Assembly (NCBI GenBank): GCA_016287095.1 | Contig: JAEEVK010000011.1 | Coordinates: 1-50,238 of the forward strand | Source: Lachnospiraceae bacterium | GTDB lineage: Bacteria > Bacillota > Clostridia > Lachnospirales > Lachnospiraceae | DNA: 50,238 nt | Reading direction: 5' to 3' | Part shown: positions 11,126 to 27,895 of the stretch, in pieces | Layout: every line of letters starts with the position of its first letter | Position numbering within the stretch: the first letter of the stretch is position 1 | Program-made: the position numbers and the translations under genes | Notes under the pieces: generated by a model | Seen by the model: the letters and a program-made list of their open reading frames with translations, nothing else | What the model was told of the DNA's origin: nothing | Databases searched by the model: none

Positions 11126-11335
11126 CTATTTTTTCTTTATTTCCAGAATATTACTGTAAATATGCGTACTATGCTTCTTTACATAATCATCAAACTCATC
11201 AATGCTTATATAAAATTTCTTACCCCACGATGATACTGTAAGACAGTTACCTTCAATAGCGGTAATGACTACAAAATGTCCATTGACGCTCTGCTGTTTT
11301 TTGTATACAGTCTCATGTTCTGTAGTTGAAAGGTG
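11126..11335 (-). pseudogene. Remnant of a C39-like peptidase gene (3' part)
   Basis: Bases 11145-11329 align without gaps to 18644-18828, the 3' half of the intact peptidase gene, with only scattered differences. The frame is still open and encodes the catalytic-His segment (NGHFVVITA) and the SSWGKKFYIS segment, then ends early at TAG 11126-11128. There is no start codon and the N-terminal half with the catalytic Cys is missing. Upstream it is joined directly to a remnant of a glgX-like gene. Confidence 0.85.
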
Positions 11336-11568
11336 CTAGCTTTTCATCTTTATCTGTATCCAGTGTTGATTTTGCCTGCTTATTAAGTATAAATAAACAG
11401 ATAGTCCTGAGCAGTACAAGTTCCTTCTGTTCACTGCCGACTCTTAGCCTGCTTTTTACCATAGGATGTGTTGAGACTACAATATCCCACTCGTGTCCCG
11501 TGATAACAGGGAGGCTGAATTCATGTGTCTCCCAGTGGGTATTTATAAATATAAGAAAACTCTTATCC
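11145..11568 (-). repeat. Direct-repeat copy of 18644-20019 with internal deletion
   Basis: Two gapless blocks, 11145-11329 with 18644-18828 and 11371-11568 with 19822-20019, lie in the same order and orientation as in the intact locus. They make long imperfect direct repeats either side of the accessory block at 11.65-18.6 kb. Confidence 0.85.
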
Positions 11569-14100: not shown

Positions 14101-14219
14101 CATATAAATTCCTTACATTTCTTAATATAATAAGCCTCAAAATACTTCTGCCCCTTAGCATCAAAGGGCAGAGCTATCAAATAATTCCAAAAGGTGCTAA
14201 TTCTCACTAATTTACTCAT
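14101..14219 (-). CDS. Small ORF split by the group II intron (5' exon)
   Basis: The ATG at 14217-14219 overlaps the stop of the 1348-residue gene by eight bases, which suggests translational coupling. Thirty-nine codons follow with natural composition (it contains ISTFWNYLIALPFD and YFEAYYIKKCKEF). The intron then begins at 14100. If the intron ends at 13478, the joined frame continues for eight codons (WLQFRNER) to TAA 13453-13455, giving about 47 residues. That ends just after the ribosome-binding site of the downstream membrane protein gene. Without splicing the frame runs into the intron and stops after a few codons. Function unknown. Confidence 0.5.
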
Positions 14220-17200
14220 ATTTCAAGTAAGCATCATAAAACTGGCCTGTTACATAATAACCAAGTTTTTCTCCAATGCTTTCAATTCTTCCTATTCTCT
14301 GTTTCAAATCTGACTCCACTTCATCTTGCCTTACTCCTGCTAAGAAATGGAGAAAATGCATTGCTGGACCATAATTATCATAGCCCTTACCAACACTATC
14401 CTCCCCAACTATACGTAATTGTGAAAGCAATTGCAATAATTGTAACTGCTCATCATTTTTAACTAAATGGTAGGATGTAAAATTATCGTTTTCAAATTTC
14501 CATCTTATATAATTAGCATAGGTGTCCGCAGAATGTCCAAACGCTATTATCTTTATACTTTCCTCATCAACCGCTCCAGTTCCACCCAAAAAATCACCTA
14601 CAGCAAGTCCCAACGATGCAGCCCATGCATATGGTCCCATTTTTGAAAAGGCAATTATCTCTCCAGTTTGAATAGCATTGTCTAAGAAATCCTGAATCAC
14701 TACATAATCATAAGCCTCATTCATATTGATTTGAATAGCATCAAGAATTCGAGATGCTGCTTCCCTTAATTCATCAATTTCAGAATTATCAACTATACAT
14801 GTCAAATATTCGATAATATAATCGCTCTGTTCTATCTCAGCATTAAGTGCAGCAAATGCATTAGACGAATTGCAAAGATCATCAAATATTCCTAAGGTTA
14901 TTGATAAACCAGTTACTATTGTACCCACTCTCTTGAGTATACTCTGGGTCTTAGGTGAAATATTGACTATAAAGCCCGGAACTCCATCAATTTTATTTTG
15001 GAGCTCATTGGATTCATTTATATATTTAACTAATGCGTTTCGTTTTGCGATATAGTTGGCACTTAAAGGCTTACTTTTGGTAAAGGTAAATTTCTTTGCA
15101 ACAGGTAGCATTTCAGATATTATTTGATCTTTGGCTTTTTTTAGCGCTTCTACATAATTAGCCAAATTACCAGCAGTATCCAACCCACCTGTTGTTGATT
15201 CTACCAAAAAACTAACTAAAGTATTATAGTCCGACTCATATATTTCAACATATTTCTTGCATATTTTATCAGTAATTGTTGCTTTATTGTATGCATTAAT
15301 AAAATTAATTAGAGCAATTTCATAATCTTTAACATAACTAATTTTTCCATTAAATAAAAAATTTCCTGATGCAAGCATAAATTTAGTAGTCTCACTATCC
15401 ATGTAATCCATTGCGGACTGTGAGGCAGCATAATTGCCATGATTTACTATAATGTTATTAAAATCACTTTCAGAAATATCTTTTACCTTGGGATTGGTAC
15501 CATTATTTTTTTCTATTTTATCAGTATATGAATCATAATCAGTATCAGTTTTCTCCATATCAGAATTAACTATTATGCTGATTATCTGGTTTTCTTTTAC
15601 AGTAAAAAGCAACTCTGAGCCATTTCGTAATCCATCATTATCAAAATCGCCATCTAAATCATTCTGGATATCTTCATACTCAGCATCTATGATAATTGGT
15701 TGATGATCCCATGAAAATAATAAATCATCACATAATAATTTAGTGTAATAATCCGAAATACCATCATTATTCGAATCGCGGGTATATTTTGCTTTATCAT
15801 TAACTTCTTCTTGAACCTTTGCTACTTGTTGCTGAAGATTCGAGGCATTCTCCGCATAATAGAATGACCCTCCTGTCGAATGAGCAATATTAGAAAGCAA
15901 TTCGTCGTCAATTGAGCCAATTCCAACTGTATGAACTATAATATCTGCACCAACGGCTCTGTCAATAATTGATCTGTACTGATTATCATATGTAGTTGAA
16001 GGCTCATCATATCCATCAGTAAATAGTATAATCATCTTAAAGCCATCTTCATCGAAGGTATCAAGCATTTCCACCGCCTTGTCAAGTCCAGTATAGATAG
16101 CCGTTGTGCCTCCCACAGACATTGCGTTAACAATCTGTTTTAGAGTAGACTTATTGCTTGTTAACTCTGATAACACAGTCGCAGAAGAGGTAAATGAAAC
16201 TATTCCTGCCTTATCATAAGGAGTTAAAACACCTATAAAATCGTTAAGAGATTCCTTCAATGTATAAATTCTATCGCGACCCATGCTTCCAGAAAGATCT
16301 GTTACGAACACTATATTTAAGTTTGTTTTACCATCTGAAGTAATAGCATGTGCTTTAATACCGTATTCCCAAACCTTAAGGAAATTAGTCTTATTCAATG
16401 TAATATATGCCGAAAAATGAGGCAGGTCAACATAAAAATAGTTGCTTACTCCATCCCAATCTCCAGGCATCTCGACCATCTCGTGATTTTCTTCATCAAT
16501 ATAGTAAAGCGCAGGAACAAAACCTTCTATATCAAGATACGAATCATCAAATGAAATCTTCAGTTTAGCAAATTTAAATTTACCATTAATGTTAAAGTCT
16601 ACCGCTGGATCTAAATATCCCATAATACGTCCATATTTTGCTCCTGAGTCATTTATAGGTTCTACGGTCAATGATTCAATATTTTCTCCACAAGATGTAA
16701 GTTGAAGTTCATAAGTAGTTCCACCTACGACAACTTCTTTATTTACTGTAAAATCCGTATCTGCTTGTAGAGGATTATATCCGCTTGTTACTTCAAATCC
16801 GTCTGATGCCCCGTCTTCATCAGTATCTTTGGCAAGAGGATTAGTTAAATAGATATTAACTTCGTCATAGTCTGTTAAATCATCATAATCACTATCAACA
16901 CCAAAAAGAAGTGTTCCAAGAATCTCCTCTTCTTTATTTAATAATCCATCTCGATCATAATCTTCATCGCCATCTATAATTCCATTATCATCTGTATCTT
17001 TTTTAAGAGGATCTGTTCCTATATCTACTAATTCAGTATAATCAGACAAGCCGTCCTCATCCGTATCCTTAGACAGAGAGTTTGTTCCATAGATTGCCTC
17101 AATGTAATCTTCCAACCCATCCATATCAGAATCTACATTAACAGCCTCTAATCCTATAGTTTTATCTTTATAAATGTTTGCAATAATGACAGTGTCACTA

Positions 17201-18258
17201 GAAACGGTATCATCATTATATAAAGCCGTTACCGTAAATTCATTATATCCTATAATAAGCGGAATATTCTCAATTACCCAGTTATTACCATTTACTGTCA
17301 ATTCACCCGATAATAAGTTAAGTCCAAAAGTATTATTCGAAGTATATGTCAAGCTTATTAAATTTTTCGAATTACCAACAGTTCCTTTGATAGAGTAGAT
17401 ATCTTTGGGAATATAAAAAATGTTTTCTCCATCTTGGACAAGCATCGAAGTATCAATTTTAACTATTCCTTTTGATTCATCTTCATAATTATCAGATGAA
17501 CCATCTACTTCATAATTACTTGAAATTATTCCAAAACTGGAAAGACTTACATTATAGATTGTTTCTGTATCAATATTGCCTTGATATCCATTAAATCCAA
17601 TAATAACACTCTGATTAGGCAATAGTCTCTGATTATACTCAGAATTCTTTATAATATAGTGGTTACCTTCATGTTTAATAATCGTACCATTCCAGATATT
17701 ATCGATTTCTCTACTAAAATCAAATTCTAAAGTCCAATCTTCAATTGGTTCTTTTCCTGTATTTGACAATTCGATAGTACCCGAGAAACCACTTTCCCAA
17801 TCACTATTCACCGAAAACTTTGTCGAATATCCACCTTCAACCACATACTCTGCACTGCAAAGTGATGTATTAGAAGGCAGTGCCTCATCATCACCATTTG
17901 CTGTAAATCCAATATAAACCTCAGAATTCTTCTTGATATCCTGATTATAGCCTATGTTTTTAACAGTATATAAATGGTTTTCTTCATAAATAATAGTACC
18001 ATTCCAGATATTGCTGATATCATTTGAGAACTCAAATCTAAGTCCCCAATTCTCGATATCTTGATGAGAAATATTTCTGATTATAAAATGAGCATTAAAA
18101 GCCCCACTCCAGCTACTGTCAACACCATAGTATATTTCTACCCCATCTTGCTGATAGATAATACTATCTGACAACTTTGCAGCTGTTCTTATTACTGGTA
18201 CTACCGAAATCACCAAACAAACACATAACAATAATGTCAAGATTTTTCTACCGTGCAT
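14212..18258 (-). CDS. Large secreted CBM2-like / calcium-repeat / VWA protein
   Basis: The 1348-residue protein has a signal peptide (about 1-27). Two CBM2-like modules lie at about 33-130 and 135-245, each with paired NIWNGTII and NQ.....S.V.IGF motifs. A beta-sandwich domain (about 265-370) and thrombospondin type 3-like Asp repeats (about 375-505, DSDMDGLEDY, DTDEDGLSDY) follow. A beta-rich region leads to a VWA domain (about 645-820) with an intact MIDAS DLSGS starting at Asp654 and a TDGYDE segment, then more Asp repeats (about 830-930) and an unrecognised, mostly helical 400-residue C-terminus. CBM2 binds cellulose or chitin; VWA domains mediate metal-dependent protein contacts. No hydrolase and no cell-wall anchor are visible. 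GGAGGTG precedes the ATG. It is AT-richer than flanking housekeeping genes. Confidence 0.85.
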   Translation of the reverse strand: MHGRKILTLLLCVCLVISVVPVIRTAAKLSDSIIYQQDGVEIYYGVDSSWSGAFNAHFIIRNISHQDIENWGLRFEFSNDISNIWNGTIIYEENHLYTVKNIGYNQDIKKNSEVYIGFTANGDDEALPSNTSLCSAEYVVEGGYSTKFSVNSDWESGFSGTIELSNTGKEPIEDWTLEFDFSREIDNIWNGTIIKHEGNHYIIKNSEYNQRLLPNQSVIIGFNGYQGNIDTETIYNVSLSSFGIISSNYEVDGSSDNYEDESKGIVKIDTSMLVQDGENIFYIPKDIYSIKGTVGNSKNLISLTYTSNNTFGLNLLSGELTVNGNNWVIENIPLIIGYNEFTVTALYNDDTVSSDTVIIANIYKDKTIGLEAVNVDSDMDGLEDYIEAIYGTNSLSKDTDEDGLSDYTELVDIGTDPLKKDTDDNGIIDGDEDYDRDGLLNKEEEILGTLLFGVDSDYDDLTDYDEVNIYLTNPLAKDTDEDGASDGFEVTSGYNPLQADTDFTVNKEVVVGGTTYELQLTSCGENIESLTVEPINDSGAKYGRIMGYLDPAVDFNINGKFKFAKLKISFDDSYLDIEGFVPALYYIDEENHEMVEMPGDWDGVSNYFYVDLPHFSAYITLNKTNFLKVWEYGIKAHAITSDGKTNLNIVFVTDLSGSMGRDRIYTLKESLNDFIGVLTPYDKAGIVSFTSSATVLSELTSNKSTLKQIVNAMSVGGTTAIYTGLDKAVEMLDTFDEDGFKMIILFTDGYDEPSTTYDNQYRSIIDRAVGADIIVHTVGIGSIDDELLSNIAHSTGGSFYYAENASNLQQQVAKVQEEVNDKAKYTRDSNNDGISDYYTKLLCDDLLFSWDHQPIIIDAEYEDIQNDLDGDFDNDGLRNGSELLFTVKENQIISIIVNSDMEKTDTDYDSYTDKIEKNNGTNPKVKDISESDFNNIIVNHGNYAASQSAMDYMDSETTKFMLASGNFLFNGKISYVKDYEIALINFINAYNKATITDKICKKYVEIYESDYNTLVSFLVESTTGGLDTAGNLANYVEALKKAKDQIISEMLPVAKKFTFTKSKPLSANYIAKRNALVKYINESNELQNKIDGVPGFIVNISPKTQSILKRVGTIVTGLSITLGIFDDLCNSSNAFAALNAEIEQSDYIIEYLTCIVDNSEIDELREAASRILDAIQINMNEAYDYVVIQDFLDNAIQTGEIIAFSKMGPYAWAASLGLAVGDFLGGTGAVDEESIKIIAFGHSADTYANYIRWKFENDNFTSYHLVKNDEQLQLLQLLSQLRIVGEDSVGKGYDNYGPAMHFLHFLAGVRQDEVESDLKQRIGRIESIGEKLGYYVTGQFYDAYLKYE

Positions 18259-18582: not shown

Positions 18583-19392
18583 TCAGTCCCCAAACTTCAC
18601 CTTAACCATCGAAGTCCAAAAGAATTTATACTTTTTTAATATCAGAATATTACTGTAAATATGTGTACTATGCTTCTTTACATAATCATCAAACTCATCA
18701 ATGCTTATATAAAACTTCTTTCCCCATGATGATACTGTAAGGCAATTGCCTTCTATAGCGGTAACGACTACGAAATGTCCATTGACACTCTGCTGCTTTT
18801 TATATACAGTCTCATGTTCCGTACTTGAGGCTGTATCCTTTACATAAAGATTTAATTCATGCTTGCCCCAGATGATAGGAAAATTATTGCCGATTGAGAG
18901 TATTACCGGAATATCATCCTTTAACATCCTCTCTACGGTCTCCCATTTCTTAATGGATGTCCATTTCCAACGGGATCTGTATTTCATCCCATGTTTTTTG
19001 AAATATTTGTTTAGTCCGTAAGCAAGCAGGAAAGCGTTTACGCCTCGCCCCGGTATTATCGGAATATATTTCTTACGCAGAATAGTGCTTTCTGTAAGAA
19101 ATTTTGCAATATCAATCTGTATAGTTCCAGTCTTTACAGTACTGTCTGAGTACCGGTTCCCAGTCTCTTTATCCGGGTTTTTACGACACTCTGCCTTTAT
19201 TTGATTTACTGCCTCAATATAAAGAACAATATCCGCTGCCCCAGCTATGCCACACCCGCAGGTCTTCTCTTTTTGTGTTTGATATAGATTCTGAGATCCG
19301 CCATACCAAACTATAGATCCGTCTTTTACTCCAAACAGGTCATGCGAAAGTGCTGCTGAATATTGTCGAGTCTCTCCAAACAGAACCTTCAT
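18583..19392 (-). CDS. C39-like (papain-fold) cysteine peptidase domain protein
   Basis: The 269-residue protein has no signal peptide. It shows the three landmarks of C39-like peptidases: a CGCGIAGAAD motif with the likely nucleophile Cys47 (Cys45 is adjacent), a NGHFVVVTA motif with His206, and an SSWGKKFYIS segment where the third catalytic or orienting residue would lie. The middle contains a GRGVNAFLL helix typical of the fold. The substrate is unknown. Its ATG overlaps the glgX-like stop by four bases (ATGA), so the two proteins are probably made together. A decayed second copy lies at 11.1 kb next to a decayed glgX-like copy, so the pairing is not accidental. The Lachnospiraceae distribution is not known to me. 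Confidence 0.75.
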   Translation of the reverse strand: MKVLFGETRQYSAALSHDLFGVKDGSIVWYGGSQNLYQTQKEKTCGCGIAGAADIVLYIEAVNQIKAECRKNPDKETGNRYSDSTVKTGTIQIDIAKFLTESTILRKKYIPIIPGRGVNAFLLAYGLNKYFKKHGMKYRSRWKWTSIKKWETVERMLKDDIPVILSIGNNFPIIWGKHELNLYVKDTASSTEHETVYKKQQSVNGHFVVVTAIEGNCLTVSSWGKKFYISIDEFDDYVKKHSTHIYSNILILKKYKFFWTSMVKVKFGD

Positions 19393-21704
19393 ACAGGCTC
19401 CTCATCGTCTAAATCCGGTCTGATGCCACGGTACTTTTTTTCTGTCTTTGAACCATTTTCATCCATAGATGTTTCCTCATCATCCAATGGTGCATCCCAT
19501 TCTATTTCGTCCGTAGCATCATCTTCAGCATTTTTATCCGCAACATCAGTTTCTTCTATGCCAACATTTTCATCATAGACATCTGTTAAGATATCGTTGC
19601 TATCAGCAGAACTAATCTCCTGGTTTCTAATATTACCGGATTCATTCTCTCCTGCAATATTTTCACCAAGCTTTTTACTGTCAGAGTTCAATATACCGAC
19701 AGCATTCTCCTTTATGTCGGTGTCAAAAGCTGAATTAGCTGACTCGGCATTTACACCTTCATTATCAGCAATGTTAACTTCAGCTTCCGGTTTTCCGGTT
19801 TTGTCAACCTCCGTCCTTGGTTTTGCCTGCTTATTTAACATAAACAAACAAATAGTCCTGGGAAGTACCAATTCCTTCTGTTCTCTGCCTACTCTCAGCC
19901 CGCTTTTTACCATAGGATGTGTGGATAATACAAAATCCCACTCATACCCGGTGATAACAGGCAGGCTGAATTCATGGGCTTCCCAGTGGGTATTTATGAG
20001 TAACAGGAAGCTTTTATCATCTGCATAAGCACCGTTCAGCATAATGCCCAATGTCCTTGAATAATATCCAAAATCCGGATACCATGCTTTGGTACCATGG
20101 TAAGATATATCAGGATTGCCGGTAAACTCAAAATCATTTCCCGACAAAATTTTATCATTTCTGAATACAGGATGTTCTTTTCTTATTTTTATAAGTTTTG
20201 TAACGAAATTCTTTATTTCAGTTGCTCTCTTTGTCTTATTCCAGATAACCCAGCCCTGTTCATTATCACAGCAGTAAGGATTGTTATTTCCCTCATGAGT
20301 ATTACCAAATTCATCTCCTGCACAAAGCATAGGGATACCCTGGGATAAATAAAGCAGAGTCAGCGCATTTTTAATCATCCTGTTACGCAGATCCAGCACC
20401 TTGTGCTTTTTGGTAGGGCCCTCAGCTCCGCAGTTCCAGCTGTAATTGGCTTCACGTCCGTCACGGTTACCCTCGCCGTTTGCTTCGTTATGACGCTCAT
20501 CATAGCTGAATACATCGTTTAAGGTAAAGCCGTCATGATCAGCCAGATAATTGATCTTGGCAAATCTCCCGCCATTATCCCTGTACAGATTTGAAGCAGA
20601 CACGATCTGGCCTTCATCACCCTTTAAGAACCTTCTGATACAATCCTGGAAGCCATAATCAGAAATGAATATCCTGTCCCTGACTATATCATGTCCCTCA
20701 TAATCCTCGTGAAAATCCCGACATAAAAGCTTAACGTTCCTTAATATCGGATCAGTGCTTACTGTTTTAAACTGTACCCTGCCTGTATTGATCCTAAAAC
20801 CGTCCACATGATATTTGGTAGCCCAGAAACGCAGGTTTTCAAGGATAAAGCCATCCGTTACATGGCTTTCATAATCCATCTCCATGATAACCTCGATACC
20901 TGCGGTATGAAGACTCTTTACCATGGACATAAACTCGTGGCATGCCTTTGCCGGCTCACTTGCATACCCAGCCTTTGGAGCAAAGTAATTTCCTGCAGCA
21001 CCATATCCCCAGAAGTTAAGCCTCGAATCCGGCACGGTCTCTTTAGGCTGTCCGAAAATGCGGGTGCGCTGAACCTCCCCTGTATATGAAGTACCTATAT
21101 TGATATGGAAATCCATCAGCTCGTTAAATTCATAACAGGGCTGAAGTATAAGCGTGGTAACACCCAGGCTCTTTAAATATGGTATTTTTTCGGCCACACC
21201 CTTAAATGTACCGGGATGCTTTATCTTTGAAGACTCATGAATCGTAAAGCCTCTGACATGAAGCTTATAGATTATCATATCTGTAGCCTTAACAAAAGGC
21301 TTTCTGTCTTTTTTCCAGTCAAAATCCTCAGTCTCAACAGAGCATACTCTACCCAGGGTATCAGAAAAGATTTCTCTGTCTCTGAGCCCTGTTTTACCTT
21401 CAAAAGCCGGAAGTTTTCCGTATCCGCTCGGACTCTTTATAAGTCTTGCACGGTCATCCAGGAAATATCCCCTATCACTTTCAAAGATATATTCATAATT
21501 TGCATTTGTACTTTTTTTAGCATCGTAATCAAGGGTTGCAGTAAAGATCGTAGGATAAAGAGGATGGGGCTCAAGCTTATGCTCCTTCCATTCTCCTCCC
21601 TGTTCTCTTATGAGGATCTTTATCCATTCACAGTTTTCTTCCGAAACCTGTGCTATCAGCTTTCCGTTTCTGACTACGACACCCAAATTAATGTCGCTCT
21701 GCAT
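19389..21704 (-). CDS. GlgX/isoamylase-like GH13 protein with altered catalytic residues
   Basis: The 771 residues follow the GH13 debranching-enzyme layout: an N-terminal CBM48-like domain (about 1-120), a TIM barrel (about 140-540), a beta C-domain (about 545-628) and an extra acidic tail (about 629-771). Regions around HDGFTLNDVFSYDERHNEANGEGNRDG and QGIPMLCAGDEFGNT are well conserved. In the nucleophile motif, normally DGFRFD, the sequence is DGFRIN: Asn306 (codon AAT, 20787-20789) replaces Asp. In the acid/base motif, normally IAEPW, it is ISDYG with Asp349 in place of Glu. The third residue, Asp391 (HDGF), is kept. The strand-4 motif is also changed (DYESH for VYNH). The protein may bind glycogen without cutting it. 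GGATAAAAGAC precedes the ATG. Confidence 0.85.
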   Translation of the reverse strand: MQSDINLGVVVRNGKLIAQVSEENCEWIKILIREQGGEWKEHKLEPHPLYPTIFTATLDYDAKKSTNANYEYIFESDRGYFLDDRARLIKSPSGYGKLPAFEGKTGLRDREIFSDTLGRVCSVETEDFDWKKDRKPFVKATDMIIYKLHVRGFTIHESSKIKHPGTFKGVAEKIPYLKSLGVTTLILQPCYEFNELMDFHINIGTSYTGEVQRTRIFGQPKETVPDSRLNFWGYGAAGNYFAPKAGYASEPAKACHEFMSMVKSLHTAGIEVIMEMDYESHVTDGFILENLRFWATKYHVDGFRINTGRVQFKTVSTDPILRNVKLLCRDFHEDYEGHDIVRDRIFISDYGFQDCIRRFLKGDEGQIVSASNLYRDNGGRFAKINYLADHDGFTLNDVFSYDERHNEANGEGNRDGREANYSWNCGAEGPTKKHKVLDLRNRMIKNALTLLYLSQGIPMLCAGDEFGNTHEGNNNPYCCDNEQGWVIWNKTKRATEIKNFVTKLIKIRKEHPVFRNDKILSGNDFEFTGNPDISYHGTKAWYPDFGYYSRTLGIMLNGAYADDKSFLLLINTHWEAHEFSLPVITGYEWDFVLSTHPMVKSGLRVGREQKELVLPRTICLFMLNKQAKPRTEVDKTGKPEAEVNIADNEGVNAESANSAFDTDIKENAVGILNSDSKKLGENIAGENESGNIRNQEISSADSNDILTDVYDENVGIEETDVADKNAEDDATDEIEWDAPLDDEETSMDENGSKTEKKYRGIRPDLDDEEPV

Positions 21705-21725: not shown

Positions 21726-23360
21726 TTAGTCTTCGTCCTCGTTATTTACACTAAGTACCTGGCGGCGTCTTGCCATCTCATCATTTTCAAGATAATCATC
21801 ATAAGTTGAAATCTTATCTATCAGCTGGCCATCAGGAGTGATCTCCATGATACGATTAGCGATGGTCTGAATAAACTGATGGTCCAAAGCGGTGAACAGA
21901 CATACACCGGGGAACTTAATAAGTCCGTTATTAAGAGCGGTAATTGATTCCATATCCAGGTGGTTCGTGGGCTCATCCATGATAAGCACGTTAGATCCGA
22001 GGATCATCATCTTAGAGAGCATTACACGTACTCTCTCGCCTCCCGAAAGGACGTTAACCTTCTTTACACCGTCCTCACCGGCAAATAACATACGGCCAAG
22101 GAAACCTCTTACATACTGCTGGTCATCAACAGGTGAGAAGGGCATCAGATGGTCAACTATAGTCTCACTGCCCTTAAACTCCTCAGTATTATCCTTAGGG
22201 AAATATGATCTCTGAGTAGTTACACCCCACTTGAAAGAACCCGAATCAGGCTCCATCTCTTCCATAAGGATCTTAAACAGAGTGGTTGCTGCCAGGGTAT
22301 TTGATCCTACAAAGGCGATCTTATCGTCATGTCCCATTACAAATGAGATATTATCGAGTACCTTTACTCCGTCAATGGTCTTTGAAAGGTTCGTAACTGT
22401 AAGTACTTCGTTACCTATCTCTCTGTTAGGTCTGAAATCTATATAAGGATATTTTCTGCTTGAAGGCTTAATATCATCAAGCTCAATCTTTTCCAAAGCC
22501 CTCTTACGAGAAGTAGCCTGTTTTGACTTTGAAGCATTTGCCGAGAATCTCTGGATAAACTCCTGTAATTCCTTGATCTTCTCTTCCTTTTTCTTGTTTG
22601 CTTCCTTCATCTGCTTGATCATCAGCTGACTGGACTCATACCAGAAATCATAGTTTCCGGCATAAAGCTGTATTTTCTGATAATCTATGTCAGCTATCTG
22701 AGTACAAACCTTATTTAAGAAATAACGGTCATGGGATACGACGATGACGGTATTGTCAAAATTGATAAGGAACTCATCAAGCCATCTGATAGCCTCTAAA
22801 TCCAAGTGGTTGGTAGGCTCGTCGAGGAGCAGGATATCAGGATTTCCGAAAAGCGCCTGAGCAAGCAGTACCTTAACCTTCAACGGGCCGTTAAGTTCGC
22901 TCATCATCTTGTTATGATATTCGGTATCTACTCCAAGTCCGTTTAAAAGCTGAGCCGCATCAGACTCTGCCTCCCATCCGTTCATAGAAGCAAATTCACC
23001 CTCGAGCTCACTTGCCTTTATACCATCCTCATCGGTAAAATCCTCTTTAGCATAGATAGCATCCTTTTCCTTCATGATATCATAAAGTCTCTGGTTGCCC
23101 ATGATAACCGTATCAAGTACAGGGTACGCATCATACTGGAAGTGATCCTGCTTTAAGAAAGAAAGACGCTGTCCGGGAGTCATTACTACATCACCCTTGG
23201 TAGGTTCTATCTCTCCGGTAAGTACCTTAAGGAATGTGGATTTTCCGGCACCGTTGGCACCTATGAGTCCATAACAGTTTCCTTCTGTGAATTTTATGTT
23301 TACGTCCTCAAAAAGTGCGCGCTTTCCGAGCCTAAGTGTTACATTTACTGCTTGTATCAT
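21726..23360 (-). CDS. ABC-F family ATPase (YbiT-like)
   Basis: This soluble 544-residue protein has two ABC domains and no membrane segments, the ABC-F layout of translation factors that act on the ribosome. Domain 1 has an intact Walker A (GANGAGKST, residues 34-42) and LLLDEPTNHLD. The linker (about 245-300) is long and Lys/Glu-rich, as in the P-site tRNA-interaction motif. Domain 2 has LSGGERVR and IMDEPTNHLD. Two motifs are degenerate: the domain 1 signature reads LNGPLK instead of LSGGQ, and the domain 2 Walker A reads GSNTLAATT, lacking the Lys. These two belong to the same composite ATP site. It sits 21 bases before the glgX-like gene and 52 after glnN. Confidence 0.9.
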   Translation of the reverse strand: MIQAVNVTLRLGKRALFEDVNIKFTEGNCYGLIGANGAGKSTFLKVLTGEIEPTKGDVVMTPGQRLSFLKQDHFQYDAYPVLDTVIMGNQRLYDIMKEKDAIYAKEDFTDEDGIKASELEGEFASMNGWEAESDAAQLLNGLGVDTEYHNKMMSELNGPLKVKVLLAQALFGNPDILLLDEPTNHLDLEAIRWLDEFLINFDNTVIVVSHDRYFLNKVCTQIADIDYQKIQLYAGNYDFWYESSQLMIKQMKEANKKKEEKIKELQEFIQRFSANASKSKQATSRKRALEKIELDDIKPSSRKYPYIDFRPNREIGNEVLTVTNLSKTIDGVKVLDNISFVMGHDDKIAFVGSNTLAATTLFKILMEEMEPDSGSFKWGVTTQRSYFPKDNTEEFKGSETIVDHLMPFSPVDDQQYVRGFLGRMLFAGEDGVKKVNVLSGGERVRVMLSKMMILGSNVLIMDEPTNHLDMESITALNNGLIKFPGVCLFTALDHQFIQTIANRIMEITPDGQLIDKISTYDDYLENDEMARRRQVLSVNNEDED

Positions 23361-23412: not shown

Positions 23413-25521
23413 TTATACCTCGAAGATCATCTCTCCGTATGTCGGTACGGGCCATAGCTCAGCGTCCACCAATGTCTCCAACTGGTCTACCGGCTCTCTT
23501 AAGTTTTTCATAGCCTTTACAACATAGTCCCTGAAATAACGTGCTCTCTTCTCCTCACCGTCAAGTCTCGAAGCGGTATTAACGTTATCTATCAGAGTCT
23601 TTAATGCACGTCTGGCTTCTCCGATATGCTCAAGAGTCTCTCCGAGCATTTCTCTCATATTGTCTGCCTCTGATTCATCCAGAGCACTCGATATAGCGTT
23701 GATGGTATCTGCAATAACCTTGGCATGCTTTACAGCTGCGGGTATGAACTTTCTGGATGCCATCTCTATCATGGTCCTGGCTTCGATATTGACAGTCTTA
23801 GAGTAGATCTCATAGGATATCTCTGCCCTGGCTTCAAGCTCAGACTTAGAGAATACTCCCTGTCTTTCAAACATATCAACGGTCTTTTTATATGTGAGAG
23901 CCTCAATAGCATCCACATAGGATTCCTTATTGGGAAGGCCACGGCGTGCTGCCTCTTCAACCCACTCCTTAGAATAACCGTTGCCGTCAAATATTACTCT
24001 CTTGTGATCATTGATTATCTTACAGATAACCTTAATAACCTTATCGTTAAAGTCAATTGAGCCTTCCAGTTCGTCAGCTATCTCTCTCAAGGAATCTGCT
24101 ACAATGGAATTAAGTACGGTATTGGCATCGGCTATGGACATAGAGGAGCCAACCATACGGAGTTCAAACTTATTACCTGTAAATGCGAAAGGCGAAGTAC
24201 GGTTTCTGTCATTCACATCCTTCTTGATATAAGGTATGGAACTAACGCCTATTCTTAATAGCTCTCTCTCTTTAGAGCTTGTGGCCTTGCCGTTGGCAAG
24301 CAGCTGTGCCAGAATATCTTCCAGCTGTTCTCCGATAAATATCGAGAAAATAGCGGGAGGTGCCTCTGCTCCACCCAGTCTGTAATCGTTTCCGGGACAT
24401 GATGCCGACATCCTGATAAGCTCTGCGTGCTCATCACAAGCCTTGATCACTGCTGCCAAGAAAAGAAGGAACTGCATATTTTCATGAGGTTTCTTGCCGG
24501 GCTTCATCAGGTTTTCACCTTCATTGGTCACAAGTGACCAGTTATTGTGCTTACCTGATCCGTTAACTCCCGCAAAAGGCTTTTCATGAAGCAGACATGC
24601 AAGCCCATGGCGTGCGGCGATTTTCTTCATGCACTCCATAACCAGCTGATTGTGATCGGTTTCTATATTTACGGTACTGAAAATAGGCGCTAACTCATGC
24701 TGAGCGGGAGCTGCCTCATTATGCTGTGTCTTAGCATAGATTCCCAGTTTCCATAACTCTTCATTCAGTTCATGCATGAACGAAGAAACTCTTTCCTTTA
24801 TGGTACCAAAGTAATGGTCATCCATCTCCTGACCCTTGGGAGGCTTAGCACCGAAAAGGGTACGACCCGAGAAAATGAGATCATCACGTTTTAAATATTT
24901 CTCCCTGTCTATCAGGAAATATTCCTGCTCAGAGCCTACGCATACATCAACATGCTTTACTTCGTTTTTGCCAAAGAGTTTAAGTACCCTTAAAGCCTCT
25001 TTGTTTATAGCCTGCATGGATCTGAGTAACGGAGTCTTTTTATCCAGAGCTTCACCTGTATATGAACAGAAAGCCGTAGGGATGCACAGCGTTACACCTG
25101 AAGAATCCTCTCTTAAGAATGCGGGGGAGGTACAATCCCAAGCTGTATAGCCTCTTGCCTCAAATGTGGCCCTAAGTCCGCCTGAAGGGAATGAAGACGC
25201 ATCGGGCTCTCCCTTTATGAGCTCTTTACCGGAGAACTCCATGATAACACGGCCGTTATCACCGACTGCCAGGAATGAGTCATGCTTTTCAGCTGTAACA
25301 CCTGTCATAGGCTGGAACCAGTGAGTATAATGAGTTGCTCCTCTCTCCATCGCCCACTGCTTCATGGCATTGGCCACTACCTCAGCTACTTCGCTGGTAA
25401 GTTCATCGCCGTTTTCGATAGAATTCTTTAAAGCCTGATATTCGGCCAAAGGAAGTCTCTCTCTCATAACTGCATCATTAAAGGTATTACACCCAAAATA
25501 TTGAGTCAGATCCATGTTCAT
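23413..25521 (-). CDS. glnN: Glutamine synthetase type III
   Basis: The enzyme makes glutamine from glutamate, ammonia and ATP. The 702 residues match GSIII (about 700-730), which is much longer than GSI and typical of Bacteroides, Butyrivibrio and cyanobacteria. Recognisable parts are the N-terminal FGCNTFND region, [12 protein letters not shown], the [10 protein letters not shown] metal/ATP motif, [10 protein letters not shown] and the C-terminal helical domain special to GSIII. The start is MNMDL with GGGGA seven bases upstream. It follows glgB after 43 bases and precedes the ABC-F gene, so nitrogen assimilation is linked in transcription with glycogen branching here. I see no obvious GlnR or nitrogen-control site upstream. 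Confidence 0.95.
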
Positions 25522-25564: not shown

Positions 25565-27850
25565 TTACTTGGTTGTAGGCTTAATAGCTGTCCCTTTTGT
25601 CTTCTTCTTTGCCGCAGGAGCCTTTTCCTTTTCGGGAGTCTCAACCTTTACGGGTGCCGGCTTATACTCAAATACACATACCGAAAGAGGAGGAAGAACC
25701 ATCTCTATAGAGTTGTTCTGGCCATCCTTTGGCATAGGACGTGATTTACGAACCTTACTGTTGACTCTGCCTGATCCGCCATACTTTTCAGCATCGCTGT
25801 TGAGGATTTCCTTGTAATTTCCGGCATAAGGTACAGCCTGTATAAAGTAATTGTATACAACGGGAGTAAAGTTAAATACAAACAACAGGGTATTTTCCTT
25901 CTTTCCGTCATATCTGATAAAGCTTACTATACTGTGATCTGCATCAAGACAGCTCATCCACTTGAAACCGTTAGGATCGTTATCAAGCTCTGTAAATGCA
26001 GGTCTGCTGGTATACAGCTTATTTAAATCCGCACAGAACTTCTGCATCTTCTGATGAAGTTCATCGTCCAGGCAATCCCAATCCAGACTTCTTGCCTCAC
26101 TCCACTCTCTCTCCTGAGCAAACTCCTGTCCCATAAAGAGAAGTTTCTTTCCGGGATGCCCCATCATAAATCCGTAAGCAGCACGAAGATTTGCAAATTT
26201 ATCCACTGTAAATCCCGGCATCTTGTTCAGCATAGAACACTTTCCGTGTACTACCTCATCATGTGATAGTACAAGGACAAAGCGCTCGCTGTAAGCATAC
26301 ATCATACTGAATGTCAGCATGCCGTGACAGCCTTTTCTGAACAGCGGATCCTGTTTCATATATCCGGTAAAGTCGTTCATCCAGCCCATGTTCCACTTCA
26401 GGTCAAAGCCTAAGCCGTCATCCTCTACCTTTCCGGTAATCTTTGGCCAAGCGGTGGATTCTTCGGCTATAATGACTGCACCGTCATTACATTTATGGAA
26501 TACGGAATTAAGATGCTTTAACAGCTCTATAGCTTCCAGGTTCTCATTGCTGCCGTACTTGTTTGCAACCCATTGTCCGTCACGTCTGCCGTAATCAAGA
26601 TAAAGCATCGATGCAACAGCATCCATTCTGATACCGTCGGCATGATATTTCTTTACCCAGAACAGAGCGTTGGCGATGAGGAAGTTTGATACCTCGGGTC
26701 TGCCGAAGTCAAATATCAATGTACCCCAGTCAGGATGTTCACCAAGTCTCGGATCCTTATGCTCATACAGAGGACCGCCGTCAAATCTTGCCAAGCCAAA
26801 CGCATCCTTGGGGAAGTGAGCGGGTACCCAGTCAAGGATAACACCGATGCCCTCGTTATGCATATAGTCCATGAAATACATGAAATCCTGAGGTGTCCCG
26901 TATCTTGATGTTGCAGCATAATAACCGGTTACCTGATATCCCCATGATCCGTCAAACGGATGCTCCATGACAGGTAACAGCTCTATATGGGTATATCCCA
27001 TCTTTTTTACATATTTAGCAAGCTTTACTGCGATTTCCTTATAACTGTAGAAATCGTTATCCCCATCACCCTTTCTGAGCCATGAACCTAAATGAACCTC
27101 ATAAATGGACATAGGGATTTTTTCTATCTTTTGAGCCTTTCTGGTCTTGATCCACTCTGCGTCCTTCCAGTCATAATCAAGTCCTGTAACGATAGCGGCA
27201 GTTTCCGGTCTGAGCTCAAAACGGTTTCCGTAAGGATCTGACTTTAAGAATGCCAGTCCGTTCTTTGCCTTTATCTCATATTTGTAAACCGTGCCCTCTT
27301 TTAACTCGGGTATGAAGAGTTCAAATACTCCTGAAGCGCGAAGCTTTCTCATGGGATAGCGTCTTCCGTCCCACATATTAAAGTCGCCTACAACGCTGAC
27401 TCTCTCAGCACCCGGTGCCCATACGGCAAAGTATACACCCTTTACACCGTTTAAGGTCATGATATGAGCGCCCAGTTTTTCATAGATATCGTAATGGATA
27501 CCCTTTAAAAACTTGGCTTCATCATTGCTGTTGAAAACTATTGGGAAAGAATACGCATCATACTCCTCAACCTTGGTGTCATTGTCATATGTTACAACAA
27601 ACTTATAATCCTTTGCTTTTTTATCCTTTGTGAGGAGTGAGAAGTTACCCTTTTCATCGGTGGGCTCCATCTTTAAGGTCTTATCCTTAAACTTTACCTC
27701 TACGGATTTTGCTGTAGGTTTAAAAGCATTGTAAATAATTCCGTTTTTAGTCTTATGAGCACCCAGCCATGAATGCGGATCATCGCACTCGGAATACTCT
27801 AAAGCTTCCATTACACCCCAGTCTAATACTTCGTACAGTTCTTTCTCCAT
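25565..27850 (-). CDS. glgB: 1,4-alpha-glucan branching enzyme
   Basis: This GH13 enzyme introduces alpha-1,6 branches into glycogen. The 761 residues comprise an N-terminal CBM48-type part (about 10-240, with GDFNMWDGRRYPM), the TIM barrel and a C-terminal beta domain, then a Lys/Ala/Pro tail of about 30 residues. Catalytic motifs are intact: DGIRMDAV (nucleophile Asp), IAEESTAWP (acid/base Glu) and LSHDEVVHGK (third Asp). I place the start at ATG 27848-27850 because GGAGG sits five bases upstream. The ATG 12 bases earlier lies just in front of that site. The tail is absent from classic GlgB and may mediate contacts. The gene heads the series of five closely spaced genes ending with the peptidase. 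Confidence 0.95.
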   Translation of the reverse strand: MEKELYEVLDWGVMEALEYSECDDPHSWLGAHKTKNGIIYNAFKPTAKSVEVKFKDKTLKMEPTDEKGNFSLLTKDKKAKDYKFVVTYDNDTKVEEYDAYSFPIVFNSNDEAKFLKGIHYDIYEKLGAHIMTLNGVKGVYFAVWAPGAERVSVVGDFNMWDGRRYPMRKLRASGVFELFIPELKEGTVYKYEIKAKNGLAFLKSDPYGNRFELRPETAAIVTGLDYDWKDAEWIKTRKAQKIEKIPMSIYEVHLGSWLRKGDGDNDFYSYKEIAVKLAKYVKKMGYTHIELLPVMEHPFDGSWGYQVTGYYAATSRYGTPQDFMYFMDYMHNEGIGVILDWVPAHFPKDAFGLARFDGGPLYEHKDPRLGEHPDWGTLIFDFGRPEVSNFLIANALFWVKKYHADGIRMDAVASMLYLDYGRRDGQWVANKYGSNENLEAIELLKHLNSVFHKCNDGAVIIAEESTAWPKITGKVEDDGLGFDLKWNMGWMNDFTGYMKQDPLFRKGCHGMLTFSMMYAYSERFVLVLSHDEVVHGKCSMLNKMPGFTVDKFANLRAAYGFMMGHPGKKLLFMGQEFAQEREWSEARSLDWDCLDDELHQKMQKFCADLNKLYTSRPAFTELDNDPNGFKWMSCLDADHSIVSFIRYDGKKENTLLFVFNFTPVVYNYFIQAVPYAGNYKEILNSDAEKYGGSGRVNSKVRKSRPMPKDGQNNSIEMVLPPLSVCVFEYKPAPVKVETPEKEKAPAAKKKTKGTAIKPTTK

Positions 27851-27895
27851 ACCTACCTCCATGTATCATTTATATCTTTTTATATATGATGCTAC

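Follow-up and report, generated by a model that had tools for sequence, protein, structure and literature searches.

A Lachnospiraceae clade of GlgX paralogues that appears to have lost GH13 catalysis and probably serves as a glucan-binding partner in glycogen metabolism

The closest described relatives of the protein treated here are the GlgX and TreX enzymes of GH13_11, with solved structures for S. venezuelae GlgX (7u39) and S. solfataricus TreX (2vnc). According to the available part of PMC9530166, the -1 sugar in S. venezuelae GlgX is contacted by Trp222, Tyr224, His271, Asp342, Glu378, Trp380 and His449; Arg212, Glu470, Asn534 and Tyr536 contact the outer sugars. Plants have ISA2, presented in the accessible portion of PMC12510319 as a noncatalytic GH13_11 paralogue of ISA1 which lost its catalytic residues early and was maintained through the lineage. 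Our searches of the open-licence PubMed Central (PMC) literature turned up no bacterial GlgX clade described as noncatalytic. GlgD is a noncatalytic paralogue which differs from a GlgX-type protein in fold and pathway step. It is, in the excerpts of PMC10395257 at hand, the regulatory subunit beside catalytic GlgC of bacterial ADP-glucose pyrophosphorylase. For B. hungatei MB2003, the accessible text of PMC5716241 gives a 648-residue 'glgX2' without CBM48 beside a 726-residue glgX1 with CBM48. Here we describe a paralogue of GlgX encoded in a 50,238-nucleotide stretch of DNA from a Lachnospiraceae bacterium (contig JAEEVK010000011.1), hereafter the window.

19389 to 21704, minus strand: GlgX paralogue (predicted non-catalytic), 771 residues, ATG start, uninterrupted open reading frame (from reading of the frame and TIGR02100 score)

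An initial annotation of the window had called this 771-codon frame intact and its product GlgX/isoamylase-like, and both statements held. The solved structures nearest the protein by phmmer were plant ISA1, S. venezuelae GlgX and TreX, and GlgX, ISA1 and TreX also ranked first in Foldseek with a poor AlphaFold model (the first of two). The whole GH13_11 domain order was matched by phmmer, Foldseek and hhalign, as expected of a homologue, and a profile of the paralogues aligned with a canonical GlgX profile at an hhalign E-value of 9e-157. With GlgX and TreX the paralogue shares domain order, barrel and C-domain sequence, the block of residues 397-488 and three of the four outer-sugar contacts named in the available part of the S. 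venezuelae study, whereas it is without the nucleophile Asp, the acid/base Glu, the region-I His and two loops, and its score against TIGR02100, the NCBIfam GlgX model, was 317.2 bits, below the curated cut-off of 640.9. Canonical GlgX proteins of Lachnospiraceae are close to it by profile, but keep the catalytic residues and loops. Because the two defining catalytic residues are missing, we do not class the paralogue as a GlgX enzyme. The altered sites in the window are as follows.

20787 to 20789, minus strand: codon AAT, Asn306, in the nucleophile column (Asp in 30/30 canonical relatives; MAFFT, hhalign)
20718 to 20720, minus strand: codon CGG, Arg329, in the acid/base column (Glu in 30/30 canonical relatives; phmmer, MAFFT, hhalign)
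20532 to 20534, minus strand: codon GAC, Asp391, in the transition-state Asp column, kept in the window (Asp in 34/115 paralogues; alignment)
20853 to 20876, minus strand: site of a deletion of about 44 residues, at about residues 277-284, with which the region-I His is lost (MAFFT, hhalign)

The initial annotation had correctly placed the nucleophile position at Asn306 and reported Asp391 as retained. It had taken Asp349 for the acid/base residue; its codon reading (GAT at 20658-20660) was right, but three alignments (phmmer with S. venezuelae GlgX, MAFFT with the 30 canonical relatives, and hhalign) all laid the canonical 'KLIAE.WD' on 'KLLCRDFH' of the window protein, giving Arg329 instead, while Asp349 sits on the Asn of the canonical 'WAEWNGK'. 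Loss of catalysis stands all the same, and with the region-I His and a loop of about 44 residues gone too it is stronger than first stated. This loop, after beta-3 (window residues 272 to 292), measured 20-21 residues in paralogues versus 65-67 in canonical proteins, and the loop after the nucleophile 13-15 versus 27-28, about 14 residues being missing.

To place these changes, 115 distinct paralogues (24 from the same genus, 91 from other genera) were aligned and compared with 30 canonical relatives, 26 of them from Lachnospiraceae and four from other families. The residue counts leave out L033-L044 (duplicates of other loci), L002, L003, L059 and rows identical over the last 350 residues; the canonical set is without L092, a 904-residue GH13 protein with intact motifs, and L022 was treated as a truncated paralogue row. 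Rows read residue by residue were mainly the best-scoring of those listed, weaker members (e.g. G121, G177, G193, G235, G249 and G266) being left out. While all three catalytic residues and both loops were present in 30/30 canonical relatives, both loops were short in 115/115 paralogues, among which the nucleophile Asp was found in 2, the acid/base Glu in 14 and the two together in none. With respect to six active-site residues, 2, 3, 4, 5 and 6 were altered in 1, 16, 30, 32 and 36 of the 115 paralogues respectively, compared with none altered in any of the 30 canonical proteins. The same picture came from 17 more family rows, 15 of which were new: none had the nucleophile Asp, 5 had the acid/base Glu, and the loops were short in 17/17. 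These losses go beyond chance because they are common to the whole clade, and by the GH13 mechanism the clade is predicted to be no longer capable of hydrolysis. Individual rows differ in detail; L008 (1498-3432) has an Asp in the nucleophile column (DGFKLD) without the acid/base Glu, and in L058 the nucleophile-column Asp is present and the acid/base segment deleted.

The nucleophile column held Asn in 45 paralogues, Met in 16, Val in 11, Leu in 11, Ile in 9 and Asp in 2. It varies freely, and Asn therefore does not represent a new catalytic residue common to the clade; of the proposed Lachnospiraceae clade sharing Asn and Asp at the catalytic positions, the clade exists but a shared Asn was not seen. 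A tree was built from 57 paralogues plus 31 further rows, and a single branch (length 0.92; Shimodaira-Hasegawa-like approximate likelihood ratio test, SH-aLRT, 100) parted the two groups. The line between paralogue and canonical protein was set by eye at 600 bits (at least 619 versus at most 583); later rows narrowed the gap to 592 versus 587, yet loop lengths and residues stayed discrete between the groups. The tree and alignments thus indicate that the paralogue is a single-origin branch of GlgX (GH13_11), here found only in Lachnospiraceae. With a profile built from 19 paralogues, 202 of 250 genomes of this family gave a match, and 196 were carriers by score, the other six being judged canonical-only. 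All 24 genomes searched from the same genus had a homologue. When the order was sampled, 20/22 Lachnospiraceae genomes carried the paralogue, whereas among 174 genomes of other families it was absent from the profile matches, all 25 matching genomes having canonical GlgX with its catalytic residues (split into two fragments in one genome). Across the phylum sample only 5/398 genomes matched: three of Lachnospiraceae, one with a canonical GlgX and one with the 904-residue GH13 protein with intact motifs.

Could the gene simply be decaying, or be an assembly artefact? The window does contain a broken 3' fragment of this gene (11366-11567), and one same-genus copy (L022) is interrupted by a stop. 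Among the matches listed (best 150 rows), however, frames of 564-813 residues were open, although stops inside the match were reported for some rows, and loop lengths were constant. The ratio of nonsynonymous to synonymous substitution rates (dN/dS) was well under 1, at about 0.07 between the window gene and L005 (with synonymous sites near saturation) and, for two more closely related pairs of the genus, at 0.06 and 0.04. We therefore give decay almost no credence. The initial annotation's view of a pseudo-enzyme that is not decaying was supported, with the catalytic pair lost clade-wide, the frames open and purifying selection strong in the genus pairs. Its idea of a glycogen-binding scaffold or regulator would fit the sugar contacts retained and the association with glgB (both below); new chemistry, its other option, is less likely, none of the three catalytic columns being conserved as an acid clade-wide.

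Most of the substrate grip appears to have been kept.

20241 to 20516, minus strand: block of residues 397-488 with many columns identical between active and inactive proteins (HNEANGEGNRDG, SWNCGAEG, GDEFG, GNNNPYC, W488; alignment)

Contacts were mapped through a phmmer alignment, in which the chain number equals the paper's number plus 3, as judged from motifs. Within the block, E411, N475 and Y477 are the counterparts of Glu470, Asn534 and Tyr536, outer-sugar contacts in the accessible part of PMC9530166, and were kept in 114, 115 and 111 of the 115 paralogues (97-100%); of the contacts listed there for the -1 sugar, W232 (Trp222) was kept in 113 and Y234 (Tyr224) in 107. Lost chemistry together with a kept sugar grip is what would be expected of a glucan-binding pseudoenzyme. 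Catalytic residues might alternatively have been relocated, leaving an active debranching or transferase enzyme. Some acids are conserved in paralogues and not in canonical GlgX, e.g. D524 (98%) and D532 (97%), and many carriers have no recognised debranching enzyme (see below). No acid is conserved in the catalytic columns themselves (Asp 2, Glu 14 and Asp 34 of 115), most of the conserved acids (D397, D415, E428, D464, E465 and D480) are also present in active GlgX, and other GH13 enzymes can serve, so that we regard relocated catalysis as highly improbable.

The reading we favour, and think probable, is that of a glucan-binding protein without catalysis that acts as a partner in glycogen metabolism, ISA2-like in its working and probably of independent origin. 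As judged from sequence, the GlgX fold would be kept in full, including the cleft region where the outer sugars of an alpha-glucan chain are gripped, and glycogen chains would be bound without being cut. The protein would cooperate with glycogen enzymes, GlgB foremost, and branch structure would be set or protected, or enzymes brought to the glycogen particle, as is thought for ISA2 in plant starch. The glucan binding, the partner and the effect on glycogen are the parts of this reading that we infer. GlgB matches were found in 196/196 carriers versus 43/54 non-carriers (Fisher 2e-8, uncorrected for phylogeny and completeness), and GlgA was present in 193/196 carriers. The GlgB line was drawn at E 1e-100 (239 genomes, 238 over the cut-off, the weak one being taken as G227, a carrier); 3 of the 11 genomes without GlgB were less than 75% complete. 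Among the matches listed, glgB lay within 45 kb of the paralogue on the same contig in 20/95 genomes, compared with 3/112 for the control glgA (Fisher 2.7e-5), where genomes listed in both searches (best 150 rows each) were counted.

The likeness to plant ISA2, as far as the accessible portion of PMC12510319 goes, lies in a GH13_11 paralogue without catalytic residues across its clade, retained and on a long branch. Unlike ISA2 it is bacterial and here confined to Lachnospiraceae, so that the loss was most likely independent, with no plant sequence in the tree; the paralogue would be a bacterial counterpart of ISA2 by analogy. An active isoamylase, the standard partner of ISA2, was moreover often not found in the same genome, and on that account the paralogue is not classed as ISA2. 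A strict analogy, with the protein as obligate regulatory subunit of an active GlgX, would fit the report that in rice ISA1 becomes more active with ISA2 attached to it (in the part of PMC12892837 available), as well as the positive association with canonical GlgX, found in 72/196 carriers versus 6/54 non-carriers (Fisher 2e-4) at a line of 330 bits (78 genomes, 49 of which exceed the curated cut-off). Both proteins were thus together in 72/250 family genomes; in G173:C6 (L127 and L163) both are on the same strand, separated by about 2 kb. Canonical GlgX was not found in 124/196 carriers, however, and within the genus it was present in just 3/24 genomes, and the obligate partnership, which we consider quite doubtful, was dropped on the former count. 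The initial annotation had asked for a second, active GlgX in the bacterium's own genome (85% complete), where only a broken fragment was found. To GlgD, as described in the available text on that protein, the parallel is that of a regulatory subunit accompanying a glycogen enzyme. The B. hungatei 'glgX2', judged from the accessible text, is plausibly a member of the family described here.

Several observations weigh against a glucan-binding partner in glycogen metabolism. The paralogue is dispensable, because 54/250 family genomes lack it, 43 of them with GlgB. No counterpart of Arg212, the fourth outer contact, could be placed by alignment; the Trp380 position is Trp in only 50/115 paralogues, and the Glu470 position varies even among canonical relatives (Glu in 10, Trp in 20 of 30). 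It is possible that the block of residues 397-488, equally conserved in active GlgX, is kept for folding. Since both AlphaFold models were poor (pLDDT, the predicted local distance difference test, 50 and 56), the cleft was deduced from alignment, and the models were used for the N-terminal domain only. Pfam CBM_48 matched 2/19 paralogues versus 9/10 canonical GlgX proteins and did not reach the window protein. The looser proximity to glgB may be inherited synteny, the loci being phylogenetically non-independent, and among the 47 loci compared a glgB operon was not seen outside the genus.

The local gene order in the window bears on the same question.

25565 to 27862, minus strand: glgB, glycogen branching enzyme, heading a tight same-strand run (open reading frame and profile match)
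23413 to 25521, minus strand: type III glutamine synthetase, glnA (profile match)
21726 to 23360, minus strand: ABC-F ATPase, 21 bases from the paralogue's ATG (profile match)
18583 to 19392, minus strand: C39-like peptidase-fold protein, a weak Pfam match (25 bits versus a cut-off of 24)

The five genes glgB, glnA, abcF, paralogue and C39 share a strand, with no more than 52 bases between neighbours, and the paralogue's stop overlaps the ATG of the C39-like gene (ATGA). A promoter and terminator scan gave no signal exceeding that of shuffled sequence. Across the 47 loci, glgB was found three genes upstream in 7, all of the genus and two of them from the same genome. The immediate flanking by ABC-F and C39-like genes, together with the glycogen operon being unseen beyond the genus, could point to a non-catalytic job outside glycogen metabolism, e.g. 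with one of these neighbours. Single-linkage clustering had suggested a family-wide ABC-F neighbour (23/47 loci), a candidate that was rejected: the stricter count of ABC-F directly upstream on the same strand was 14/47, 13 of these from the bacterium's own genus (two from the same genome), and the adjacency is mainly a genus trait. With the sugar-contact residues retained and a GlgB match in every carrier as well, we consider a job outside glycogen metabolism unlikely.

If the paralogue is a glucan-binding partner and does not debranch, the question raised is how glycogen is debranched in carriers. Type I pullulanase (line E 1e-80; 57 genomes, 56 over the cut-off) was found in 47/196 carriers, and in these score-line searches neither canonical GlgX nor type I pullulanase was found in 92/196. 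When GDE_C, which marks the animal/archaeal-type GDE, was searched in 45 of those 92 genomes, 8 gave a match and 6 were over the cut-off, but only one was strong (G123, 411 bits), the others being below 26 bits. The bacterium's own genome, at 85% completeness, gave no type I pullulanase and no GDE_C match; its other GH13 proteins include a 710-residue maltodextrin-glucosidase-like protein with intact-looking motifs. Carriers without GlgX or pullulanase would use either other GH13 enzymes or something unrecognised. It is a long shot that in about half of the carriers the 'dead' protein itself handles alpha-1,6 branch points, through non-GH13 chemistry or by presenting branches to a partner, such that no classical debranching enzyme would be present. 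The paralogue is likely to be annotated 'glycogen debranching enzyme', as we would expect, yet seems unable to debranch, and annotation-based pathway predictions would mislead for many genera of Lachnospiraceae, which are common in gut and rumen. A bacterium without crystalline starch could also serve to test whether ISA2-like proteins act generally on branched glucan architecture.

Two further regions of the protein were delimited.

21405 to 21704, minus strand: N-terminal beta-rich domain, residues 1-100, occupying the CBM48 place of GlgX (hhalign with canonical GlgX)
19392 to 19787, minus strand: acidic low-complexity tail, residues 640-771, 132 residues of which 41 are Asp/Glu and 10 Lys/Arg (residue count)

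In the AlphaFold model strands predominate in the N-terminal domain, with pLDDT of 81-87 in 6 of the first 8 ten-residue blocks. Long frames (739-761 residues) also occur in the closest relatives L004, L005 and L006, while most others have 600-680 residues. Elsewhere in the window, a relict copy lies at 11133-11567 on the minus strand: 11133-11329 matches the 3' part of the C39-like gene (18632-18828) at 90% identity, and 11366-11567 that of the GlgX paralogue (19817-20018) at 84%, the stretch between the two preserved pieces being gone. Between the relict and the C39-like gene, 14212-18258 (minus strand) encodes a 1348-residue protein, perhaps a surface adhesin, which matches cellulose-binding CBM2 twice and also has a VWA domain and TSP3 repeats.

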